The notes under the pieces: model-generated | The model's database searches: none | Told to the model about the DNA's origin: nothing | Seen by the model: only the letters and a program-made list of their open reading frames with translations | Position numbers and translations under genes: made by a program | Source of the DNA: Porphyridium purpureum | Taxonomy: Eukaryota; Rhodophyta; Bangiophyceae; Porphyridiales; Porphyridiaceae | Direction: 5' to 3' | DNA length: 64,000 nt | NCBI GenBank assembly: GCA_008690995.1 | Contig: VRMN01000006.1 | Location: 911,139-975,138 of the forward strand | Shown: in pieces, positions 16,408 through 58,403 of the stretch | How the letters are laid out: each line of letters opens with the position of its first letter | Numbering within the stretch: the stretch's first letter is position 1

Positions 16408-18261
16408 TCAAATCACATCACACCACATCCGCCGAATCCCCGCCACGACGTCGCGGTAGATTCGCGTCCGTCCTTCCACAGGCCCGTCGACGAGCGGGAC
16501 GAGTACCTTGCCACCGATAAGGAGTCTTTTCGTCGTTTGAGTATTGTACCCACCTCCAATCGCATCGTGTGCTCCACACTGCTCGCTGTGACCGAGGACG
16601 ACCAGGAGGTTACTAAGCAAGAGATAGACAAAGCCCGCGAGGCCCGAGATCTAGTGCGAAAGCTGGCCTACGCGTCAACCTCCGCGCTGCTGCATGCCAT
16701 GAGCAGTGGGGCTCTGATCGGTACGAGTGTCACAGCTAGAGATGTCGACCGCGCGCTTGTTTTTTGGGGCCCGGACGTCGCAGCCCTGAAGGGTCGTACC
16801 ACTGGGCACCGGAGCCCAAAGATTCCAGAAGTGCGGCGTTGGCTGGCAAGGCAGCAACAAAGCCTGCACTGCGACGTGATGTTCATCGAAAGACAGCCTT
16901 TCTTGCTTGCCGTAGCCAAACCTTCGCAATACATGTATGCGACGTCAATGCGTACCAAGGCCGCGGCGGACATTGGACGGGCGCTACGCGCACAAATTAC
17001 GCACGTCTCAGCTCACAATATTCTCATTAATGAGATTCGGTCCGACCCGGAGAGCGGCCTCGTCGCAGTCGCAGAGGAGCTTTTGCGTGCAGGTATCCTG
17101 CCGGAGATTACGGCTGCCACCGAGGCCGTGCCCGCCGCCGAGCGCGCCATAAGGCTCGTGAAGGAACGTGTGCGCTGCGTTGTCAATGGCCTTCCGTTTC
17201 GACTGCCGCTCGGGCTTCTGGCGGCCGCTGTACAATACTGCGTGCAGCGGTTGAACATGCTGCCATCCACGGTTTCTCAGAGCCCCGGTGCAAGCGCTCG
17301 CGAACTCTTCACTGGTCTAAAAAGCGATGCAAGTCGAGACCTGCGCCTGAAGTTCGGCGAGTACATTCAAGTGCACACAGCCAAGACAGGCAACTCGCTA
17401 GAGCCGCCAACAGAGGGGTGCATTGCGCTACATGGCTCAGACAACTTGAGCGGCAGCTGGCACATATTCGGTCTAAACACGGGCCGGATAACAGTTCGTC
17501 AGCGCTGGACGCAGCTGCCGACGCCTGCAGAAGTCATTGAGCGCATGAACGATCTTGCGCACGGCGGAGTGGTTCTGCTCGATACAGACCACAGCGAGCG
17601 TGGCTTGGACGAGGTAGACAATGCCACGGAACCGGTTCATGAAGCATCAGCATCCACGGTACCTACTTATTACAAGGATGAGCACGAGGTTGCTGGCACG
17701 ACATATGAACCAAATGAGTTGCCAGCAACTTACCTATCTAGTGAAGACGCTGACCTGCCTGACAAGCATGAGTCTGTACGTGAAAACGATCAGCTTGCAG
17801 CTGCTTCCGAACAAGCACGACTGCCGTCCATCCGGGACGCGACCACTACCAGCCCGTCCCCAAGTCCACGAATGCTGCAGCACCAGCAATCACCAAAGCT
17901 TGCCAGCAACGATGCAGAGGCACTGCACGGAAACCCGGTTCACGAGCGCGACGATTTAGAGCCACCGGGAAACCCTGGAGTGCTAGGACCAGCGGAAAAC
18001 CCGGGAGTGCACAAAACTGCGGAGAATCTAGGAGGCCATGAAACTGCGGAAGAACTGGGAGCACATGAATCCGCAGAAGGGTCGGGGGCGCAGCATCCTA
18101 TAGGCGACTACTGGCCTTCCCCGTCGCCGGCACCAGAGTCGGTGCGCCTCAAGGAGCAAGCAATCGAAATCAAACCTGACCGCAAGCGTAAGGCTCCTAC
18201 AAACGGCGAGCAACAGGAGGCGTGCGAGCCGCTGGAAGATCTGCTAAGGCGTAGCCACTAA
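16408..18261 (+). CDS. Ty1/Copia pol, first part (GAG-pre-integrase and integrase)
   Basis: This is an open frame with no ATG at its head; translation presumably comes from an upstream gag-pol frame. The first 200 residues hold an integrase-like core (CDVMFIERQPFLLAVAKPSQ and, further on, AERAIRLVKERVRCVVNGLP, matching the Copia ERxIRxxKERVR helix). The second half is acidic and low-complexity with short repeats around GVLGPAENPGVHKTAENLGG, then a basic tail with PDRKRKAPTNGEQQ. It ends at TAA (18259-18261). The RT half follows in the same frame after a second stop near 18301, so two stops split one polyprotein frame. Confidence 0.7.
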   Translation, partial: SNHITPHPPNPRHDVAVDSRPSFHRPVDERDEYLATDKESFRRLSIVPTSNRIVCSTLLAVTEDDQEVTKQEIDKAREARDLVRKLAYASTSALLHAMSSGALIGTSVTARDVDRALVFWGPDVAALKGRTTGHRSPKIPEVRRWLARQQQSLHCDVMFIERQPFLLAVAKPSQYMYATSMRTKAAADIGRALRAQITHVSAHNILINEIRSDPESGLVAVAEELLRAGILPEITAATEAVPAAERAIRLVKERVRCVVNGLPFRLPLGLLAAAVQYCVQRLNMLPSTVSQSPGASARELFTGLKSDASRDLRLKFGEYIQVHTAKTGNSLEPPTEGCIALHGSDNLSGSWHIFGLNTGRITVRQRWTQLPTPAEVIERMNDLAHGGVVLLDTDHSERGLDEVDNATEPVHEASASTVPTYYKDEHEVAGTTYEPNELPATYLSSEDADLPDKHESVRENDQLAAASEQARLPSIRDATTTSPSPSPRMLQHQQSPKLASNDAEALHGNPVHERDDLEPPGNPGVLGPAENPGVHKTAENLGGHETAEELGAHESAEGSGAQHPIGDYWPSPSPAPESVRLKEQAIEIKPDRKRKAPTNGEQQEACEPLEDLLRRSH

Positions 18262-18342
18262 ATCATCACGGAGCTCAAGCGCACGGCTGGAGCCATGCCG
18301 TAGCGAGGCAAGCGTGCGCGCAAGCCGAGCACGAGGACAAGC

Positions 18343-20169
18343 ATGAGCAAGCGCAAAGCCACGGGCGTCGTCGAACCTAACGAGGTCAGCAAGAGAGCTC
18401 GCGCATTTCTCACCATGCTCAAGCGTGCCTCGGCGATGCATCTCAGTGCAAAGGCAGCCTACCGACAATGCGGTGCTGGGGCGCTGCAGGCTGTCGTAGC
18501 CGAGGTTGCCCAAATGCTTCCACGGCATGGCAAGGATGTTCTGCACCCGGTGGCACTGCGCAACATGTCATGGGCGCAAAGGCGAATGATCATCCCATCG
18601 CACCTTTTCGTTAAAGCGCAGATATGGGCCAATGGCGACCTGAAGAAAATGAAGGCGCGCTTGGTTGCTGGCGGAAACCTTCACGACAAGTCACTGCATC
18701 CGGACGTGTCATCGCCAACAGCGTCTACAAACGCGCTCTTCTTTATCGCTGCATTGACCGCGCAAGAAAATCGCGCAGTGGCAAGTATCGATTTCCCTGG
18801 CGCCTTCCTCAATGCCCAGATGCCGGACAACCCGCCGACGTATATCCGCCTGAACCGATTTTTAGCAAACACGCTGGTTGCCATTGAGACGCGCTACCAA
18901 ACACAGCAGAACGTCCACGGAACAATGATCTGCCGCTTAAATAAGGCACTTTACGGCACCATTCTGGCAGCAAAGCTTTGGTACGAAAAGCTTACAGGCC
19001 TGCTCGTGAAGCTGCGATTCGCGCCGAACCCATACGACGCATGCGTTTGGAACCGAGAGCAGCATGGACGCCACGTGACTGTGGTCATGCATGTGGATGA
19101 TGTCCTTGTTTCCGCGCCCAGTGAAAGCGACATTGACGGTTTGATTCGAGAGATTAAACATGAGTATGACGGCGTTGAGCGACACCGCGGCAAGATCCTG
19201 AGCTACGTCGGGATGGTATTCGATTTCAATACTCCTGGGATCGTCTCCGTGAGCATGCCAGGCTACGTGGAGACAGTACTTGAAGAATCCCCGGTCAGCG
19301 GCCGCAGCTCCTCCCCAGCCGGTACAAACCTCTTTGCTGTGAGCAATAAGGTCGAGCGTCTGTCCGGCCCGCGTGCAGACCGTTTCCATTCTCTGGTGTG
19401 CAAGCTGTTGTATATGGCGAAATGTGCGCGTCCTGACTTGTTGACCGCGGTCAGCTTTTTGAGCACGCGCGTAACCACGCCGACCGTCGAAAATGAGAGA
19501 AAACTCCAGCGTGCGCTGCGTTACCTCTCCACTACCTGCGATCTCGGCGTTGCCTTTGCCGTCTCCAGCCCACCGACAGCTTCTGTGGACGCTGCATTCG
19601 ATGTCCACGAGGGCATGACCAGCCACACTGGCGTCGCCATTTCGCTGGGACGCGGGGCAATTTTTGCCAAGAGCAGCAAGCAGAAAGTCGTTGCAGAGAG
19701 CAGCACTGAAGCTGAGCTGGTCGCGGTCAGCGACAACGTTGGGCAGCTCATCTGGACCCGCAACTTTCTTGCGGTACAGGGCGTGGACTTAGGCGCGGCG
19801 CACTTGCTACAGGACAATATGTCCACGATGGCAATGATTGCCAATGACCGCCCAAAGTCGTCCCGTACTCGTCACATGCATATCCGGCACTTCTTCGTCA
19901 CCGACAAGGCGAAGAACGGGGAGGTTGTGGTGCACCACTGCCCCAGCGACGGCATAACCGCCGATATCTTAACCAAGCCATTGCAGGGGCCAAGGTTTCA
20001 AAAGCTGCGAGATCAGCTACTCGGACGAACGCCCTTCCGCGCCAAGCAGGCAGGGAGTGTGTTGAAGAATGCGGCGGTACAGCTACCGACAGATGAACCG
20101 CACGACGAAGAAGCAGCAGGTGCCTGCATAGGCGCCGCTGCCGGGACGGCCGAGGCGCGGATCTCTTAG
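18343..20169 (+). CDS. Ty1/Copia pol, reverse transcriptase and RNase H
   Basis: 608 aa, open throughout. The RT begins with the Copia hallmark KMKARLVAGGN and continues with ASIDFPGAFLNAQ, LNKALYGT and the active-site box MHVDDVLVSA near 19087-19104. The RNase H domain carries SVDAAFD, AESSTEAELVAVSDNVGQ, a QDNMSTMAM segment and the Copia signature ADILTKPLQGPRF near 19960-19995. Every catalytic motif checked is present. This half would be functional if expressed, but it is separated from the integrase half by stops at 18259 and about 18301, and the element's gag is decayed. It copies element RNA into DNA in cytoplasmic particles. Confidence 0.9.
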   Translation: MSKRKATGVVEPNEVSKRARAFLTMLKRASAMHLSAKAAYRQCGAGALQAVVAEVAQMLPRHGKDVLHPVALRNMSWAQRRMIIPSHLFVKAQIWANGDLKKMKARLVAGGNLHDKSLHPDVSSPTASTNALFFIAALTAQENRAVASIDFPGAFLNAQMPDNPPTYIRLNRFLANTLVAIETRYQTQQNVHGTMICRLNKALYGTILAAKLWYEKLTGLLVKLRFAPNPYDACVWNREQHGRHVTVVMHVDDVLVSAPSESDIDGLIREIKHEYDGVERHRGKILSYVGMVFDFNTPGIVSVSMPGYVETVLEESPVSGRSSSPAGTNLFAVSNKVERLSGPRADRFHSLVCKLLYMAKCARPDLLTAVSFLSTRVTTPTVENERKLQRALRYLSTTCDLGVAFAVSSPPTASVDAAFDVHEGMTSHTGVAISLGRGAIFAKSSKQKVVAESSTEAELVAVSDNVGQLIWTRNFLAVQGVDLGAAHLLQDNMSTMAMIANDRPKSSRTRHMHIRHFFVTDKAKNGEVVVHHCPSDGITADILTKPLQGPRFQKLRDQLLGRTPFRAKQAGSVLKNAAVQLPTDEPHDEEAAGACIGAAAGTAEARIS

Positions 20170-34172: not shown

Positions 34173-34419
34173 CACATACGTGTCCTACGAGCGTGTCTTG
34201 TCGCCCGAAGGAACGTCCACACGACGGCCGTCACGGCAGCGCCGGTGGCGAGCAACTGCAAAGCTCACTTTGGCGCCTGCCGCGCGCTCTAGTTTGGAAA
34301 GCCACGGATCTTTCTCTCGTCCACTTGTGGTCGCCGCACCCAGCGCACGCCTGATGCCGTCACCCGGGCGCACATGGACCGCCTAGGTACAGTTGCCAGA
34401 TCTTTGGGTTCTGAACTGA

Positions 34420-35856
34420 AGTGCGACCAAATCGGATAGGGGACAGTACCTTTTTTCAAGTTTTACAGGTAAAATGATCTGCTTTACTATAAAAAGGATA
34501 GAGGTCCGGTGAACAGGGAATATGAAGGAGGTCAAAACGGATAGGGGACACGGCACATTTCTGGCCATTACTCAGCCATAGAGAATCGGAATTGGTCGCG
34601 GTTTCCTTGCACGCACGCGCCTCAAAGATACGCACAGTTAAATATTCGTTTCGGCAGCGACGCGTACAAATTGGCCATCACAGGCTGGTCCAAAGTCTCC
34701 CAAGCCTGTAAAATGGCATTCTTGAGCTCTAGCACCGTCTGATACTGCCTTGCACCCTCGTAAACCTTGCGCGCTAGTATCCCCCACAGGTTTTCGATAA
34801 TATTGAAGTCCGGCGAGTACGCTGGCCAGTCTAGAAGCTCCACATTCTCGTCATTCATGAAATTCTTAACCAGGCGACTTGTGTGCACTGGCGCGTTATC
34901 CTGCTGAAAAACCATGTTCGGGCCCACCATCTGACGGCAACGGTTCAGCAGTGTCCTCTCGAAGCATGGAAACATATTTTGCAGCCGTAAATGACCCCTA
35001 AATAAAATGCCGGTGAATCTTTCCTCTTGCAGAAATTGCACCCCAAACCATGCATCCACCGCCGCCGGAATGTCGCGACTGAAGTTCTGGAACGTCCGCC
35101 GCACGCTCAACCCACGTCTTGTGGAAACCATCGGGTCCGTCCAGGTTGAACTTCTTTTCGTCAGTGAACACAATTGCGGCCCAATTGGTCTGTTCCAGCT
35201 GATGATGCCTGGCCCAGGCCAGCCTCTTAAGCTTGCGATTGAGTGCCAGTGGCGGACAAGCTGGAATTTTGCGGTATGCATGCGTGACACTCATTGCCTT
35301 CCTGATTGTCGTCAAACTTTGGATTGGTTTAGCTCCACGAATTCGCAGAGCTGCTTGAACCTGACGTGCCGTGTGAATGTTCGGAAGCTTGGCGATGTTA
35401 AAAATCTTCGTTTTGACTGCCTCAGTCAGCTTTAAATCGTTCACATTGGCATATTTCTGGCAGTAGTCGTTTGGAGCCGACAAATAGCGGGAAACCACGT
35501 TCTTCGAGCGCCCAATTTTGGTCGCAATGGCTCTCACGCTGTTGCTCGACTCTCGGAGACCCTGGATACGTCCTTTCCCCTCGCCCGTAAGGCCAATATT
35601 GCGCCCCATGGAGTCAAAATGGAGCTCATTACGAGCTGCGATGGATCCACACTTTTCCGCTTACACTGAACCGCCAATGTCCGAGATATTTCGCTTCCAC
35701 GCAGTGTCCCCTATCCGTTTTGAGCCACAAATTTCGTCATAACCGTTGCAGACGAACCCCGCCGTTCTACTTTTATAGCAAAAGATCAAAATTTACCATT
35801 AATTAACTATTTTTTCTGAAACATTTGACTGTCCCCTATCCGATTTGGTCGCACCT
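34420..35856 (-). mobile_element. Tc1/mariner-type transposon, IR/DR family, copy 1
   Basis: A 1.44-kb element. The right end GGTCGCACCT is followed by TA; the left end is GTGCGACCAAATCGGATAGG with one base lost. Each terminal inverted repeat carries two direct repeats: an outer one CGGATAGGGGACAGT (left 34433, right inverted about 35828) and an inner one AACGGATAGGGGACAC (left 34536-34551, right inverted 35704-35719), about 100-125 bp apart. This is the IR/DR layout known from Sleeping Beauty-like Tc1 elements. It carries one transposase gene on the minus strand. A second copy of the family lies at 58754-60192. Confidence 0.85.
34622..35609 (-). pseudogene. Tc1-type transposase, one frameshift (copy 1)
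   Basis: The ORF from the ATG at 35609 encodes the HTH domains (GEGKGRIQGLRESSNSVRAI, KNVVSRYLSAPNDY) and the first catalytic Asp in VFTDEKKFNLDGPDGFHKTW, then GGGGCMVWGAISARG. At about 35020-35030 the frame changes. The second half reads ERFTGILFRGHL, VFQQDNAPVHTSRLVKNFM and LDWPAYSPDFNIIENLWGIL: the second Asp and the Glu of a DD34E triad, ending NLYASLPKRIFNCAYL at 34622. All three catalytic acids survive; the single frameshift inactivates the copy. The two frames overlap over 34998-35290. Confidence 0.85.
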
Positions 35857-35959
35857 TAGGTTGTCCCATTCACGGTAAAAGCGATCAGGGTCAGGTGGCA
35901 AGGTGACAAAGGTGGTTGAAGACGAAGCTATCAAGACCGCTCGTACTTGAGACGCCTGA

Positions 35960-37350
35960 TTCAAACATCATGTTCAGCGGTGTCCTAAGACACCGTGCAT
36001 CGGGTTTCCCCGGCAGGGTCAGGCTCCAATGCTGGGGAAAGAAATCCCCAGCGCTTTGTGATTGCGCAAGAAAATATTTTTTGCGCCATTGATATTGCGG
36101 TCCATGACCGCTTCACACGTACTAGAACGGCACCTAGAAGTCTTAGCGCCGCCCAGATTCGCGTGTTTGGTTCCCTACGCGTTGCACGTGTTTAAGGTAT
36201 AGGTCTCATTGACAAGCACCTGTTTCGAAGTGCTTTTCGTGCATTAAATGGAATTCGTCTTTGGACGCGGTATTAGCCCTAGGGGAACATCTGACGCGCT
36301 ACCTTGGAACGTTTCTTGTGTTCACGACGGCGGACCATGTTGGAAACCGCGAACGTGGGCAACAGGATAAGGTCACACTCGCGCACCAGGAATGCGGTGA
36401 TTTACTTGTGGACCTCATCCACTAGGTTGCATATACGGTCATGTTCACAGCGTGCGGCTGGGCGCAGCGCGCAGCGCCGGTGCGCGTTCTCCACGGTTGC
36501 AATCTTGGACATCAAAATCGTCCAAGCCCTTGCAGAGTCGGAAAAAGCGACCGATGTCGCCAACTCCCCACGGATATAGCGCGACTCTGACTCGGGTCGA
36601 AAAGCGTCTGGAGGTTCGGACGCCCGGGTCTAATGTAACAAGACGCTGTTGCACATCACTTTGACTTTGGTTTTCGGCCGTGTTTTGAGCTGGCGATTGT
36701 TGCTGTTGCTGTCGCAGTTGCTGTCGCAGTTGCTGCCGTGGTAACAGTTCCGGCTTTAGGCTGAGCGGTGTGTACCTGTGTGGTATGCACAGATACAACT
36801 TGTTCGTCGGTGTTCGCTGCAGACGACAATACATATTACTGTGCTCACACGACACAGCGACACCTCGACCTGTCCACAACCACACTGGTGCGGTCCACGG
36901 CAGCTACAGAAAAACGCAGTCTGCGTGTTGCTCGATCCATTCCTTGCGAATATAAATAGACTCACTCGCGTGAGCCTTTCGTGAGCGAAAACCGAGCCTG
37001 AGATGCGATGCATTTCCCCCTGCCACATTGCTGTGGCATGCTTCAAACGCCGCAATTGCATCCGCACACGGCCCATCCCGAATACCATATGGAATAGACC
37101 TGAGCCACGGGTTGGCACCGACATTCTCACTGCTGTTGTTCACCAGCTTAAACCGCAGATACTGTACCCAGCTCACGGTGGTAACACCACTTCGCCGACC
37201 TGCGTCCGCCGCTGGACTGATTAGAAGCGCGACGCAGTGATTATACGTCCACCGAGCAGCACCGAACAGCTGAAGTATACGCTGATGGTCCACTCGGCGG
37301 ACGGGACTCACCTTGAATTTTGAGGCGGCTATAGCTTCGCCCCACCGCGT
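35960..37350 (-). pseudogene. Decayed Fanzor (eukaryotic TnpB-like RNA-guided nuclease)
   Basis: Minus-strand pieces in TnpB/Fanzor order. 37350-36907: KFKVSPVRRVDHQRILQLFG, ARWTYNHCV, then PWLRSIPYGIRDGPCADAIA and FRSRKAHASES, the OrfB N-terminal domain. A TAG at 36904-36906 is followed in frame by the WED-like YCRLQRTPTNKLYLCIPHRY (36831-36772), RuvC-I VTLDPGVRT (Asp at 36628-36630) and WGVGDIGRFFRLCKGLDD. After a frame change near 36450: NLVDEVHK, then stop 36402, FLVRECDLILLPTFAVSNM, REHKKRSKVARQMF, and stops at 36279 and 36273. After a further frame change at about 36220: VNETYTLNTCNA-stop-G, CRSSTC and RuvC-III MDRNINGAKNIFLR (36105-36064). The RuvC-III acid is Asn instead of Asp (36094-36096). 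RuvC-II shows the Fanzor-type LLPTF instead of a Glu motif. Length fits a roughly 450-aa compact Fanzor. No intact copy is in the window. Confidence 0.85.
35978..36052 (-). ncRNA. Candidate guide-RNA scaffold (omega-RNA-like) at the Fanzor 3' end
   Basis: Three hairpins cluster at and past the end of the Fanzor reading frame, read on the minus strand: GCTGGGGA/TCCCCAGC with a 6-nt loop (36031-36052, perfect 8 bp), CGGG/CCCG with a 4-nt loop (36001-36012), and CGGTGTC/GACACCG with a 4-nt loop (35978-35995, perfect 7 bp). In TnpB and Fanzor loci the guide RNA scaffold overlaps the 3' end of the ORF and runs to the element's right end, which is this position. The stems are intact although the ORF is not. 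That it is transcribed or was a guide scaffold is inference. Confidence 0.5.
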
Positions 37351-37791
37351 TTAACCGCCGTTATTTCCTTGTCACACGGCAGCTGTAGACGCCCTTCCGC
37401 GCCCACCCGCATCTCCGGGAGCTGATTTCCAACCGATGTTCGTGGCCAGGTTACGGGAAGGACTGATGAGCTAGCCCGTCACGCGCCGATCGGCCACCGC
37501 TTCCTTACCTTGCACACTGTTGAAAAAGCGAACTCGCCCGATGATGGACGATTGAGGGGGCGCGAGCGAGCGTACGACCTGCTGATTAGCAAGAGGTCGG
37601 CGCGACCGGTAACCGGAACGAGAGCGACCCGACCGGACGGTCGCGCGGAGGGTGCGATGGTCCCGGCCTTCGCGGCTGCTCTAAAGGGCTGGCGCAGCCG
37701 CGCGGAGCAGTATTTGCCTGTCTTTAGAGTTAGAGGCTTCAGTATTTATCATCGGAATTTATTGGTACTATAAAAGAGGCTTCTCGGAACA
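37351..37791. other. Intergenic upstream of the Fanzor relic
   Basis: This 441-bp region should contain the other end of the Fanzor-bearing element, but no terminal repeat or recombinase gene was recognised. A TATA-like CTATAAAAGA lies at 37768-37777, pointing to the + strand. Confidence 0.35.
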
Positions 37792-38230
37792 ATGGCGTTT
37801 GCTTATAGTGGAGCGGTTGCACCTGTGGGTCCGGGCTTATTGGATTTTCCACACACACGAAACCACGTCGATTTTGTGCGCGAGCAGAATGCGCCGTCCG
37901 CGTACTCTTTCGACGCGGCCGCGGTTAGCGACCAGGTCAACGCTGAGATGGCAGCCGATGCTTTGGACCAGAATGGTCTTGCTTCCTCCTGGTCACCCCG
38001 CCATACTCGCTCGCCGTCGCCTTGCCGAAGGACGCTCTGGCACAGGCGCCGCTTTGCTCTGCGACTCGCCCGCCGTGCCGCTCGCCGCCCGCGTGCGTGC
38101 GCGCATCTTGAGACGGAGACACGCCTCCTTCGCATCGTGTCGCGCGATGTTCTTGTTCAAGTGCGAGCCAGCCAAACTTCTTCCACGACAATTGAAACCT
38201 CTGGCAACGTGCATAAACATCGTGAAATAA
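37792..38230 (+). CDS. Unresolved small gene, two candidate frames
   Basis: Two overlapping + frames look partly coding. One opens with the ATG at 37792 (MAFAYSGAVAPVGPG..., natural for about 65 residues, then Arg-rich). The other, one base ahead, ends at 38230 with AMFLFKCEPAKLLPRQLKPL and could start at the ATG at 37973 (85 aa). A TATA-like box at 37768-37777 is only 15 bp from the first ATG, so a transcript starting about 30 bp downstream of it would miss that ATG and favour the second frame. A frameshift joining the two near 37970 is also possible. No family is recognised. Confidence 0.3.
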
Positions 38231-38800
38231 AAGCTGTGTTTTTGATTTCAGGGGTTTGCAGGTTCTAAGGAAAAAAATCAACTGCTATAAAGCGTCTTAC
38301 CAACTCAACTTTCTTGCTGTCTGCGCGCATCCAGCCCGGCTGCGATGTGCCCTGACCCACATAGATGCCTCACGGGTGCTCTGCCTTTTGATGGACCACA
38401 ACTACACTTTAATTCGACATTGCAAACCACGACATACCCTTTCGCTCGCAGAGGATGCTCCATGGAACACGTCTCGGCATGGGTCGTTGCCTGCCGTGTG
38501 TGTGCGGACACGCGCGCATCAATCTTCCCACCTGGAATCCGAAAACGGTTTCATTTCAAATCTATCGGTTAACCGTTAAACCGATGTGGCGGAGAAAATT
38601 AAGTTTTTGCTGACTCGCACATCAACCGGAAAGTGACAGACATGTGGCGCGCGCAGGGTGAAGATTGGCACGACAAGACGAACGCGAAGAATCGTAATCG
38701 TTTCCACGCCATCCTCTCTGGTCGAACCTAGCAGCCAGAGGCAACCTCGCTGGTCCGCGGCGTCGGCTGATCACGTGGCGTCGTTCGCACCGGGATAGTG
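38231..38800. promoter_or_regulatory. Upstream region of the GT61-like gene with Myb-like cluster
   Basis: At 38541-38583 lie AAAACGGTTT and CGGTTAACCGTTAAACCG, a dense cluster of AACSGTT cores that includes the exact 13-mer AACCGTTAAACCG (38571-38583) also found in the ETF-QO/PNPase promoter. It is about 220 bp before the start codon at 38801. Nothing else was recognised in this 570-bp region. Confidence 0.45.
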
Positions 38801-48254: not shown

Positions 48255-49089
48255 ACGGACCAGATGCTCGTCATGGCTGGCAGGCCATTGCCATCAGTGC
48301 TCGCATTTAGGGCGCTAACCGCATATCCGCTCACCACAAACCTGAGAATGCGCCGTTGTGCCGCGCCGAACCGAGTCTGCGCTGCACGCGCGTACGAGTC
48401 TGCGTGCGAGCGCGTGAAGCGTCGGCATCCAAAGCACAGCGCTCTCCAAAACACACCTGTTGCGCAAAGCGTGCCGCAAATTGCGCGAGCGCGCCGCGGC
48501 TCGATACAAATGCTTGATCTCGACGCGCGGCGGCTGCTTATTGGACGAGTGGCCGGCTGGCCGAGTGTGCGCGGTGTGCGCGTCTGCTGGCGTGCGCTCG
48601 CGCACGGCCGTTTGCGTGGAACGCGTGAGGCGCACGCACGCACGCAGCGCAACGTGTGACCCTGGCTGGCGGTCCCACCGCGTTCCGCTCTTTTGGGCTG
48701 GTTTTGGCGATGTGCACGGTGGATATGCGCGTTAACGGTGTGCGCGAGATGCTTGTCTTGCGCAATGGATTCGATGCGCGCGTGGATAGTTTGGCTGCAT
48801 TCACCCCCGTGCGTGACAGGTATGTTGCGCGCGCTCCGGCGCAGAGGTTTAAGAGAGCGTAGCTGGGCGCGAGCGGGCTGGCAAGGTGCTTATTTAGCAG
48901 CGGGACTCCGTGGGGCGGTGCGGCGGAACACAAGGAGCATGGCATAGAGGTGGCGACGCAGAAGAGCGTGTGTGGGTGGTCGCAACTGACGATATCGAGT
49001 GAATAATTTTATGTTCGTACGGGGAGGGGCATTCCGCGACGGGCGCGTTGCTGCCCGCCGTGGTCGAAAGGCACAGCACGCCTTTGAAA
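48255..49089. other. Intergenic, nothing firm
   Basis: Very CpG-rich sequence lies between the decayed PPR copy and the BspA-like relic. A 50-codon + ORF from the ATG at 48710 exists without support. A TATA-like CTTATTTAG occurs at about 48890. Confidence 0.3.
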
Positions 49090-50120
49090 TGGCGCGAATG
49101 TTTCCTCTGGCTTGGGCTTTGGCCATCGCGCTGCTTGCGACCTGGTCTTCGTTGCCCACTGTGGTGGCTCAGGAGCTCTGCCGTTGGGTCCCGCAGTGTG
49201 AACCGTGCTTGTCAGCGGGGACACTGGCCCTGGCTCCAGACGCTACAGGGGCGATTTCATGCAGGGCCGTCCACGCGACGTGTCTCGGCGGGTCCCCCAA
49301 TTGCGTAATGCAGCCCTGCCAGAAATACGTCAAGTCTGAGGAAACCCAGCTGAAGATGGTGCTCGAGTACGAGGACGTTTCTGAGGTATCCTTGGAATTT
49401 TCTGCTTCGCCCGTGGATGTTTTGGTCGATTATGGCGATGGAATGGTGACGGCGCCAACGAGCACGGGGAAAGTCAAGCACACATACCGACGTCAGGGAA
49501 GCTATCAAGTCGTAATCTCCGGAAGTCTGGGTGGAATCATGTTCACGGATGGCTTGGCTGCTGTGGCTTCGTGGGGCGAGCTCGGCCTGACCACTTTGAA
49601 TGGGGCTTTCGCTGGTTTGAGCTCACTGCAAAACGTTCCCGCCGACATACCGCGCACGGTCACAAATCTCAGCGCCATGAGTGCGGGATCAAGTTTCAAG
49701 GGAGACATTGGAACGTAAGACTTGTCGAGGGCGACAGAAATGAAAGACATGTTTGACTCTACTATCTGCAACGGGATCATTTCAGAAGGGGCTGTCAGCT
49801 GTGCGACAAGCATGAGCTTTGTGTTTGCGTCTTCGAGCTTCAACGGAGATATTGGCTAGCGGAATGTTCCTTCATGCTCTTGCCAATTAGGATTTTGGCT
49901 CATGGAACGTGTGGAGTGTGGCAACCAGGAGCTTCACGTTCGCAACGACGCACGTCCACCACGACGCATCTGACTGGGCAATGAGCGACGTAAAAGACAG
50001 AACCGTCGCGTTTTGTCAGGGCGGAACGCGCTTGACGCTCGATCATTGGGGGTACAGCGAGGGCGCTTCCACGACATCAGATGCATTCAGCGTTGCGCGG
50101 CCCTGCGTTCGGGATGCGGT
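49090..50120 (+). pseudogene. Decayed secreted BspA-like (DUF285 repeat) protein
   Basis: From the ATG at 49090 the protein starts with a good signal peptide (MARMFPLAWALAIALL, cleavage probably after VVAQ). A Cys-rich segment follows, then VSLEFSASPVDVLVDYGDGM and HTYRRQGSYQVVISG, and then DUF285 repeat phrasing: AMSAGSSFKGDIGT, TEMKDMFDSTICN, TSMSFVFASSSFNGDIG. The frame breaks at TAA 49716-49718 and TAG 49857-49859. Each falls where the repeat normally has Trp (Fxx-DI-x-W). After a frame change near 49880 more repeat text follows (VWSVATRSFTFATTHVHHD, SDWAMSDVKD). DUF285 proteins are surface or secreted leucine-rich-repeat-like proteins. The remaining 5' piece could still make a 209-aa secreted product. 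Confidence 0.65.
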
Positions 50121-56860: not shown

Positions 56861-58403
56861 CAGTCCTGGCCAAAATGTTTGCAACACCCTCATAAAAAGT
56901 GAAATTCGTGTAAAAGTGAAGAATCTTGATAGACAAGGGTATGCTTTGAGCACGCCAATCGATCGCGCGTCCCAAGAAACACGGGATCGTCCAACCGGGA
57001 GGAAAAGGCAAGGAAAGAGCGCATGGGCAATGGAGACAGCAAAAAGGGGGTATTGGCGAGGGGCGCAGGTTTTGGAACGTAACAAAGAAACACGAAGATC
57101 AAGAAGGATGAGACTTTAGTACTTGGTGTGGTGGCCGCGCGCGTCTAGTACAGCTTGAAGACGGCGAGGCATGGACTCCAAAAGTGGAACTACGTACTTT
57201 TGGGCCTCGGTCGCCCACGCCGCAAGGACGGCAGCCTTAAGTTCTGCGACGCGCTGCGAACTGGCGGCCTTTTCGGTAAACCACGCGCGACAAGACGCCC
57301 CAAATGTTTTCAATTGGGTTAAGGTCCGGAGACCTTGCAGGCCACGGCAGCACAGTGACGCCGAGTGCGTCGAGCCACGCCTTGGTCGAGTTGGCCGTAT
57401 GTGCCGGGGCATTGTCTTGCTGGAAAGTGAAATTGAAGTCATACATTTCCAGGCCGAACGGAAGCAAGGCTTCCAGCAAGACTTGTTGATACTTAACGGC
57501 ATTCAAGCCACCCTCGACGAAGACGGCCATTGTTAGGCCGCGCAGGGACATACCGGCCCACATGTGAACCTTGCCACCTCCAGAGTGCTGGCGCCTGGCG
57601 TACGAACTTGACTTAGCGCGACAGTCGACCCATCGCTGCGAGGAGCCGAACGGACCATCGCAGCTCCAAATCTTCTCGTCTGAAAAGACCACTTGATGCC
57701 AGAAAGCCATTGGTTTCGCAATGAATGCAGTGGCAAACGCCAATCGCTTTCTGATGTTGTCAGACGACAGCGAAGGTTTCCGCGAGACTCGCTTGTAGCG
57801 AAGAAAGCCTGCTGCTTGAAGCGTCCGACGCACTGTCCTGGCCGAGCACTGCAAGTGCAGCTCGTGAACCACCTGTCCGGACGTCAGTGCATCAACAGAT
57901 ACGGCGCGAATGATGCGGCGTTCCGATTTGCGACTCAAAAGCCGTTTCGGACCTGGCTTCTTGCGGACAATTCGGCGACCCCTTAACGTCAGATAACGGC
58001 TCACAGTTGCATAGAACGGCCGCGAGCGATCTGGGCGAGGCTTCAGAGCCTTCGCAATGGCTCGTACCGACAGCTCCTGGCCCGCAAGGGCGTCGATCTG
58101 CCCTTTTTTGTGTTCCAACAGCCACGGCGCCATTGTCCGGCCGTTGCGCGCTCACTTTCGATCCGGAGACTCTCCACTTGCGCACGAGGAGATGGATCAG
58201 CCAGCGAAGATCCTTTGAGCACCTTCTGATGGTCTGGGGAAAACAAAAACGCGCGCGCCGCGCCTTGGTTCATCGTTATGCTTGATGTTCACAATGTTAA
58301 AAAAGAGTTAAAAGTAAACATTCAATCAAAATGAGCTCTTGTACTATAAGATCCAGTTCGTTGGACTAAAATGCAGATGTTGCAAAAATCTTTGCCAGGA
58401 CTG
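56861..58403 (-). mobile_element. Tc1-type transposon, second family (CAGTCCTGGC termini)
   Basis: A 1.54-kb element bounded by inverted ends CAGTCCTGGCCAAAATGTTT (left, 56861) and the inverse of CAGTCCTGGCAAAGATTTTT (right, ending 58403), each flanked by TA (56859-56860 and 58404-58405), the Tc1 target duplication. The termini are close to the classical Tc1 end. It carries one transposase gene on the minus strand. It is a different family from the copies at 34420 and 58754. Confidence 0.9.
57116..58133 (-). pseudogene. Tc1 DD34E transposase, nearly intact, one late frameshift
   Basis: The ORF from the ATG at 58133 gives 298 aa. It contains paired HTH domains (ALAGQELSVRAIAKALKPR, LTSGQVVHELHLQCSARTVR), the basic GRRIVRKKPGPKRL linker, the first Asp in VVFSDEKIWSCDGPF, GGGKVHMWAGMSLRG, the second Asp in FQQDNAPAHTANSTKAWLDA and the Glu in LPWPARSPDLNPIENIWGVL, a DD34E triad. 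Near 57260-57290 the frame changes; the natural C terminus (RVAELKAAVLAAWATEAQKY, ending VLDARGHHTKY at 57116) lies in the other frame. Only the last 45 or so residues are lost, after all catalytic residues. Confidence 0.88.

Follow-up and report, generated by a model that had tools for sequence, protein, structure and literature searches.

What remains of the nuclease gene on the minus strand of this red-algal contig, to which class of RNA-guided nucleases did it belong, and does the genome hold an intact relative? The window, the whole 64,000-nucleotide stretch of Porphyridium purpureum DNA analysed here, had been described in an initial annotation, made from the letters alone, as carrying the relic of a compact Fanzor at 35960..37350 in an algal-type nuclear genome; the host is indeed a red alga. 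We conclude that a Fanzor2-type mobile element of P. purpureum left a decayed copy on the minus strand at 35953-38300, with a probable omega-RNA derived from its own mRNA, and we put the probability of this reading at about 0.93.

Motifs, borders and decay of the window copy

The eight TnpB/Fanzor motifs reported by the initial annotation are all present where they were said to be. In the three-frame translation of the minus strand between 35900 and 37500, ARWTYNHCV, PWLRSIPYGIRD, KLYLCIP, LDPGVRT, WGVGDIGRFFRLC, VNETYTLNTC and DRNINGAKN share a frame, LILLPTF lies in the neighbouring one, and their order is the one given. The profile check proposed for this translation succeeded in part. A six-frame search of the genome with PF07282, the zinc domain of TnpB/Cas12f, returned six places, all above the curated cut-off of 26.3 bits, the weakest of which is the window copy at 28.6 bits; a machine-made read-through of this copy gave the same score. 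The read-through reached 32.2 bits with the NCBIfam model guided_TnpB, whose cut-off is 100. When five pieces of the window copy were scanned separately, PF07282 (0.0053) and PF12323 (0.015) stayed under their cut-offs, as did two unrelated families that were similarly weak (0.013 and 0.07). The best copy in the genome, L032, read through with an X at its frameshift, matched PF07282 at 9.5e-19 and guided_TnpB at 108.5 bits, over the cut-off, together with PF01385 at 4e-6 (27.5 bits, under the cut-off of 30.5); PF01385 was below cut-off at all four genome places that it matched.

The Fanzor fingerprint of Yoon et al., as given in excerpts of PMC10711439, consists of DPG in RuvC-I and a catalytic Glu six residues before the zinc finger. 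Both are present here, which sustains the assignment to Fanzor. RuvC-I reads LDPGVRT in the window and in L032 (DPS in L026, NPG in L029), and the Glu lies in VNETYTLNTC in the window and VNEAYTSKTC in L032. The spacing from DPG to Glu is 139 residues in L032, read across one frameshift, and falls within the expected 120-160. An alignment of 36 relatives (A4) shows no variation at the Glu, DPG and RD positions, and among the 120 listed proteins of 1838 matches the Glu is found in 112, is replaced by another residue in one and is unreadable by the pattern in seven. In L032 the zinc finger has the form C-x2-C...C-x4-C and is followed by RD; its second pair is C-x4-C, as in the window, versus CxxC in the published pattern. 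The host is eukaryotic, as expected of a Fanzor, with family proteins annotated in P. purpureum. A canonical TnpB of the IS200/IS605 type was considered and rejected: at the RuvC-II place, ~50 residues before the zinc finger in TnpB, the Glu is absent from both the window and L032, and LLPTF stands there instead.

The motifs lie within the interval first given, and the copy itself is longer, extending from ~38300 to 35953 with its insert included (Table 1). At the 3' border, similarity to L027, L028, L029 and L030 stops at 35951-35953, while upstream similarity stops at 38275 or earlier, with weak similarity slightly beyond. The added sequence takes in an N-terminal coding part, cut off from the remainder of the gene by an insert of ~330 bp that is probably a separate mobile element. 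The PFW...LW.P part of this N-terminus recurs in P0022 and P0103 (as PYW in P0079) and the STWF part in P0002, P0006 and P0022; both are present in the five cyanobacterial proteins examined. A glutamine-rich tract precedes RuvC-I (window 36670-36740, L026 3810-3870, L032 3820-4020); its length differs greatly between copies and is much expanded in L032.

Table 1. Positions of the Fanzor element copy, its parts and the adjacent Tc1/mariner element in the window
Feature	Position	Strand	Basis or remark
Whole Fanzor element copy, insert included	35953..38300	-	3' border sharp, 5' border approximate
N-terminal coding part, PFW...LTWS...STWF	37860..37976	-	Reading frame; outside the coordinates first given; ~80% DNA identity to other copies
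Insert of ~330 bp splitting the Fanzor reading frame	37519..37853	-	Edges uncertain by ~8 bp
Motif ARWTYNHCV	37257-37231	-	Three-frame translation; corresponding motif in relatives
Motif PWLRSIPYGIRD	37110-37075	-	Three-frame translation; corresponding motif in relatives
RuvC-I DPGVRT, first catalytic Asp (fingerprint DPG)	36613..36630	-	DPG invariant in alignments A3 and A4 of relatives
LILLPTF, canonical RuvC-II Glu position without Glu, shifted frame	36351..36371	-	P and F invariant and Glu absent in A3
Alternative catalytic Glu, six residues before the zinc finger	36205..36207	-	Glu invariant in A3 and A4
Remnant of the zinc finger; a stop replaces one Cys codon, and the second pair is C-x4-C	36115..36186	-	Translation and machine-made read-through
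RuvC-III DRN replacing DRD, catalytic Asp lost	36094..36102	-	Compared with L032
Probable omega-RNA scaffold	35953..36069	-	Fold z -5.40; covariation over 14 copies; 123 bits with the covariance model, of which it is a training row
Where the guide is expected in the ancestral transcript (3' flank)	35930..35952	-	Inferred from the border position; flanks differ among copies
Broken Tc1/mariner element, separate from the Fanzor element	34416..35859	-	Inverted repeats; PF13358 and PF11427

Compared with L032 over three stretches, the window copy has five in-frame nonsense codons and nine frame-changing indels (counted in one alignment), besides the insert. RuvC-III reads DRN where L032 has DRD, and a zinc-finger Cys codon has become a stop. 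The copy is incapable of making the nuclease and is a relic, as had been proposed.

Related copies and their surroundings in the genome

Searches of the 22.16-Mb P. purpureum genome showed that the window copy belongs to a dispersed family. The DNA of 35990-37400 (minus) matched 15 stretches, namely itself and 14 others at 72-84% identity (E down to 1e-308), with long copies on contigs C43, C33 and C1. A protein search with the C-terminal half of L032 (189 residues, L032:3188-3757) matched 56 stretches, which form about 39 loci on nine contigs when pieces less than 15 kb apart are joined; these counts are lower bounds, and the protein search ignores introns. The 3' end of the element was found at 14 places, four of them outside the 39 loci. 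Just one of the 56 stretches, the query's own place, spans the whole query in a single open frame, and L032 itself consists of two open halves joined by one frameshift, with the 3' tail of the element missing. The published assembly combines Nanopore and Illumina reads (PMC6811547), and this frameshift might be an assembly error. The L026/L027 copy is split by ~13 kb of repeated sequence that we infer to be a tandem array of LTR retrotransposons. The two halves of the repeat seen at 37519-37853 of the window bracket this large insertion, which is an array of long repeated tandem units.

Two members of the family are annotated in P. purpureum as hypothetical proteins, FVE85_6921 (C43) and FVE85_4352 (C33). 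The latter (P0081) looks like a fusion of retrotransposon sequence with the N-terminal portion of a Fanzor. No third Porphyridium protein occurs among the 120 listed of 1838 protein matches, most of them unnamed, suggesting that no intact copy is annotated. The expectation that an intact relative might exist elsewhere in the genome was thus right as to relatives, of which there are many; none of the genome loci found holds an intact copy of the element.

Codon comparisons of L032 with six other copies gave dN/dS values of 0.30, 0.35, 0.38, 0.38, 0.45 and 0.64, with dS to L032 running from 0.04 for L026, the youngest pair, to 0.51 for L030, and 0.40 for the window. These values show purifying selection on the copies: the protein stayed functional during the spread of the family, and the copies decayed later. 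The youngest pair looks nearest to neutral decay. Overall, about forty related places, none intact, together with a conserved guide-RNA-like structure, suggest that the nucleases once spread in this genome.

A genome search for PF00239, the domain of the IS607 serine recombinase (TnpA), gave no match over the cut-off, the best reaching 16.6 bits (E 0.098); the control was positive in 10 of 14 genomes. Neither inverted repeats enclosing the Fanzor element nor target duplications were seen, its 5' end being inexact, and for L029, L032 and L026 we found one-sided flank matches only and no clean empty insertion site. Some of the copies sit within or next to multi-copy sequences. The 3' flank of L029 is 73% like window 49567-49855, and the 5' flank of L032 matches a C17 locus at 98% across 281 bases. 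L032 and L026 share ~50 bp beyond the start of L033 homology, a stretch also present at C17 and C27 loci; this would fit copying by repair and also ordinary duplication.

Several other repeats and genes were observed nearby. The window gene at 48990-49860, with PKD matches only and those under cut-off, has a paralogue in L029 (2568-3539) that matches DUF285, and the Fanzor copy of L029 sits at this paralogue. Two long reading frames at 16408-20169 of the window were judged by eye to be copia-type retrotransposon-like (an integrase-like part, then reverse transcriptase), and a second Tc1-like transposase reading frame (PF13358, PF01498) lies at 57237-58151. The Tc1/mariner element next to the Fanzor copy begins 94 bp from the Fanzor border and has inverted repeats at 34416-34458 and 35817-35859. 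A second, nested pair of repeats lies at 34532-34554/35701-35723, and the transposase is split over two frames.

A candidate omega-RNA at the 3' end of the element

The copies are strikingly alike between their last codons and the element border. In L027 and the window this region has a near-identical fold, in which a hairpin within the last codons is followed by a closing stem, GCCTGA/TCAGGC; this stem takes in the stop codon (36019-36021), encloses three hairpins and ends 1-2 bases before the border. Of five copies folded singly among the 14 available, L027 and the window gave z scores of -5.24 and -5.40, and the three others were less convincing (-2.53, -2.09 and -0.62). When the structure was mapped onto all 14 copies, 81.9% of cells were paired, versus 31.1-44.5% with partners slid; shuffled partners paired nearly as often (79.5%), with 3 of 500 shuffles as high as the real value. 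Double-sided changes were seen in 18 cells against a shuffle mean of 8.9 (0/500 as high) and in 11 pairs against 6.4 (10/500 as high), while the count of further pair types was unexceptional (59/500). For all 14 copies RNAalifold gave a weak consensus of -4.88 kcal/mol, with 17 pairs and a covariation term of +0.47; the consensus of the first eight was stronger (-22.0 kcal/mol), and the covariation term was slightly unfavourable in both sets.

A covariance model built from the 14 copies and run on 28 genome sources matched 20 places, comprising the 14 training rows, one duplicate and five new copies (L032, E 1.4e-11; L048, 2.5e-6; L049, 1.6e-4; L058, 0.004; L059, 0.091). Each of the five new matches overlaps the end of the protein match or sits just downstream of it on the same strand. 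Eight sources (L033, L034, L050, L054, L055, L057, L062 and L063) gave no match to the model, nor did 89 further loci up to E 1 (52 of 80 bacterial, 37 of 37 viral). Rfam returned four matches in 35700-38500, none over gathering. In nine copies with at least 48 codons the RNA region, compared with L027, is more alike than the coding part, compared with L032 (0.67-0.95 versus 0.60-0.89). The relation does not hold for L036 (21 codons) or L037 (7 codons), and in L035 no coding sequence was matched. These three loci have conserved RNA 3' ends (L035 2894-3006, L036 2262-2363, L037 2503-2618) with little or no Fanzor coding sequence upstream, and may be truncated copies or guide-RNA-only loci.

Thirteen copies extend past GGC; G follows in 10 of them, and the second base beyond is variable. 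In IS607 elements the right-end flanking base is fixed and belongs to the RNA scaffold, according to excerpts of PMC10711439. Judging from its conservation among the copies, the 3' structure is a probable omega-RNA scaffold. Since it stops where the element does, the guide would have come from the host DNA immediately adjoining the border. The ancestral element, of ~2-2.4 kb, coded for a single protein, and this was a compact RuvC RNA-guided DNA nuclease. The mRNA would probably also have been processed to yield the omega-RNA, with the scaffold folded from the end of the reading frame and a short 3' tail. The nuclease would cut the unoccupied copy of the insertion site, and repair would then copy the element back or keep it in the population, to the element's benefit.

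Affiliation of the family and alternative readings

Among solved structures, a profile of 36 relatives found L79 (PDB 9b0l) as its best chain, at E 1.2e-51 over 388 profile positions; the second chain stood at 3.9e-24, and none of those listed up to E 10 carried the name Fanzor1. Fanzor1 structures exist in the Protein Data Bank. The C-terminal half of L032 likewise placed L79 first among solved chains (E 1.6e-18); the N-terminal half had no solved relative, only glutamine-tract matches. L79, a TnpB-like mimivirus protein and one of the listed Fanzor2 proteins (ISvMimi type), has the Glu before the zinc finger as the window family does, and as the best solved relative it marks the family as Fanzor2-like. 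Excerpts of PMC3627910 list mimivirus with three Fanzor2 families and describe some of the viral elements as carrying IS607 serine recombinases, in contrast to the Porphyridium genome, where none was found.

The bacterial relatives point in the same direction. When prokaryote contigs were scanned with a 12-row profile, 251 of 271 stretches proved to be relatives, and cyanobacteria, judged by record title, make up 66 of the best 80, as expected for pro-Fanzors. Cyanobacterial relatives are 31-37% identical over their own length to the metagenomic relative P0028. The nearest four metagenomic relatives among the matches listed are apparently full-length and 43-46% identical over 92-100% of the query. 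Cyanobacterial pro-Fanzors share DPG and the alternative Glu with our family (PMC10711439, in excerpts) and, in the five proteins examined, an N-terminal P-Y-W...SWF motif. They differ in being prokaryotic and in being reported with IS607 TnpA in the same excerpts; four of the five proteins examined have lost zinc-finger Cys, and the Porphyridium RNA model found no match in any of the 52 bacterial loci, out of 80, on which it was run.

We then placed the family in a midpoint-rooted tree of 95 rows (two Porphyridium, 45 of the 120 listed proteins, 24 of 80 bacterial loci and 24 of 37 viral loci), with SH-aLRT supports only and no Fanzor1 or canonical TnpB reference row. The two Porphyridium rows pair together with support 100 in both trees computed, inside a 33-row group otherwise of metagenomic proteins (99 in both). 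A wider 48-row group (99 and 97) holds two Lipomyces (yeast) proteins and one viral contig, and adjoins, in one of the two trees, a group of eight cyanobacterial loci and two viral contigs. Nearness to P0002-P0006 changed between the trees, and only the Porphyridium pair and the 33-row group were stable. The phylogenetic check suggested by the initial annotation therefore went part of the way: the family clusters with IS607-type TnpB, pro-Fanzors and Fanzor2, beside cyanobacterial loci and with yeast and metagenomic rows, in a tree without Fanzor1 or canonical TnpB references. Since it contains no Fanzor1 sequence, the choice between Fanzor2 and Fanzor1 rests on the profile scores and the bacterial relatives. 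The Fanzor2 assignment itself is favoured by the L79 match and the cyanobacterial relatives; the rearranged Glu, from which it had been drawn, marks all Fanzors and not Fanzor2 only.

A Fanzor1-type element like the CMe-1A family of the red alga Cyanidioschyzon merolae has several points in common with ours. Both hosts are red algae, our genome search found no IS607 transposase, and CMe-1A, in excerpts of PMC3627910, likewise has old copies ~80% identical to consensus, no terminal inverted repeats and no transposase named in the element. The same excerpts give CMe-1A as a Fanzor1 with ~150 copies, some intact, whereas the Porphyridium family is Fanzor2-like with none found intact. With the relatives' profile finding L79 and no chain named Fanzor1, and DNA scans with such a profile returning mostly cyanobacteria (best 80 of 251), we regard a Fanzor1 origin as quite unlikely. 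SpuFz1 of Spizellomyces (PMC10432273) differs as well, being a Fanzor1 with 30-nt inverted repeats; the Porphyridium RNA structure overlaps the last codons. The broken Tc1/mariner element so near the Fanzor border raises another alternative, that the Fanzor was its cargo gene, as reported for some Fanzor1 proteins, and the Fanzor remnant L037 also lies near a Tc1 element. Such an association is very improbable: the order of Fanzor and Tc1 is reversed in L037 and the Tc1 match is absent from the other loci compared. We rejected it, as the Tc1 inverted repeats enclose the transposase only. That cyanobacterial proteins are relatives in the same clade might also indicate a bacterial TnpB acquired by contamination or recent transfer, an explanation whose likelihood is next to nil given about 39 loci spread over nine contigs, a number of which adjoin or lie inside multi-copy genes and other repeats, and the two family members that are annotated Porphyridium proteins.

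Within the preferred Fanzor2 reading, a more specific account may be considered, although we think it unlikely: a lineage that lost its IS607 transposase and nevertheless spread in several waves by its own RNA-guided cutting and break-repair copying, much as homing elements do, while loci consisting of the 3' end only provided additional guide RNAs. Transposase-free spread is suggested by the lack of a serine recombinase hit in the genome, and several waves by subfamilies only 42-57% alike in protein. The ~50 bp shared by the youngest pair, L032/L026, and also found at C17 and C27 could be a trace of break-repair copying, and the L035-L037 3' ends, whose upstream protein sequence is slight or absent, hint at guide-RNA-only loci.

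Fanzor1 had been described in a red alga before, a 2013 table listing a single Fanzor1 family for red algae (PMC3627910, in excerpts). A link between Porphyridium and Fanzor/TnpB was not found in the article texts searched, and a prior listing of Porphyridium may exist in the tables of the 2023 surveys; the excerpted text of PMC10820777 mentions Porphyridium and Fanzor/TnpB separately and does not link them. The present family adds a Fanzor2-like lineage to the red algae and provides a comparative, sequence-only case for an omega-RNA with a closing helix across the stop codon. Its apparently full-length metagenomic relatives are candidates for testing as compact nucleases, and its placement beside the cyanobacterial pro-Fanzors bears on how RNA-guided nucleases entered eukaryotes.
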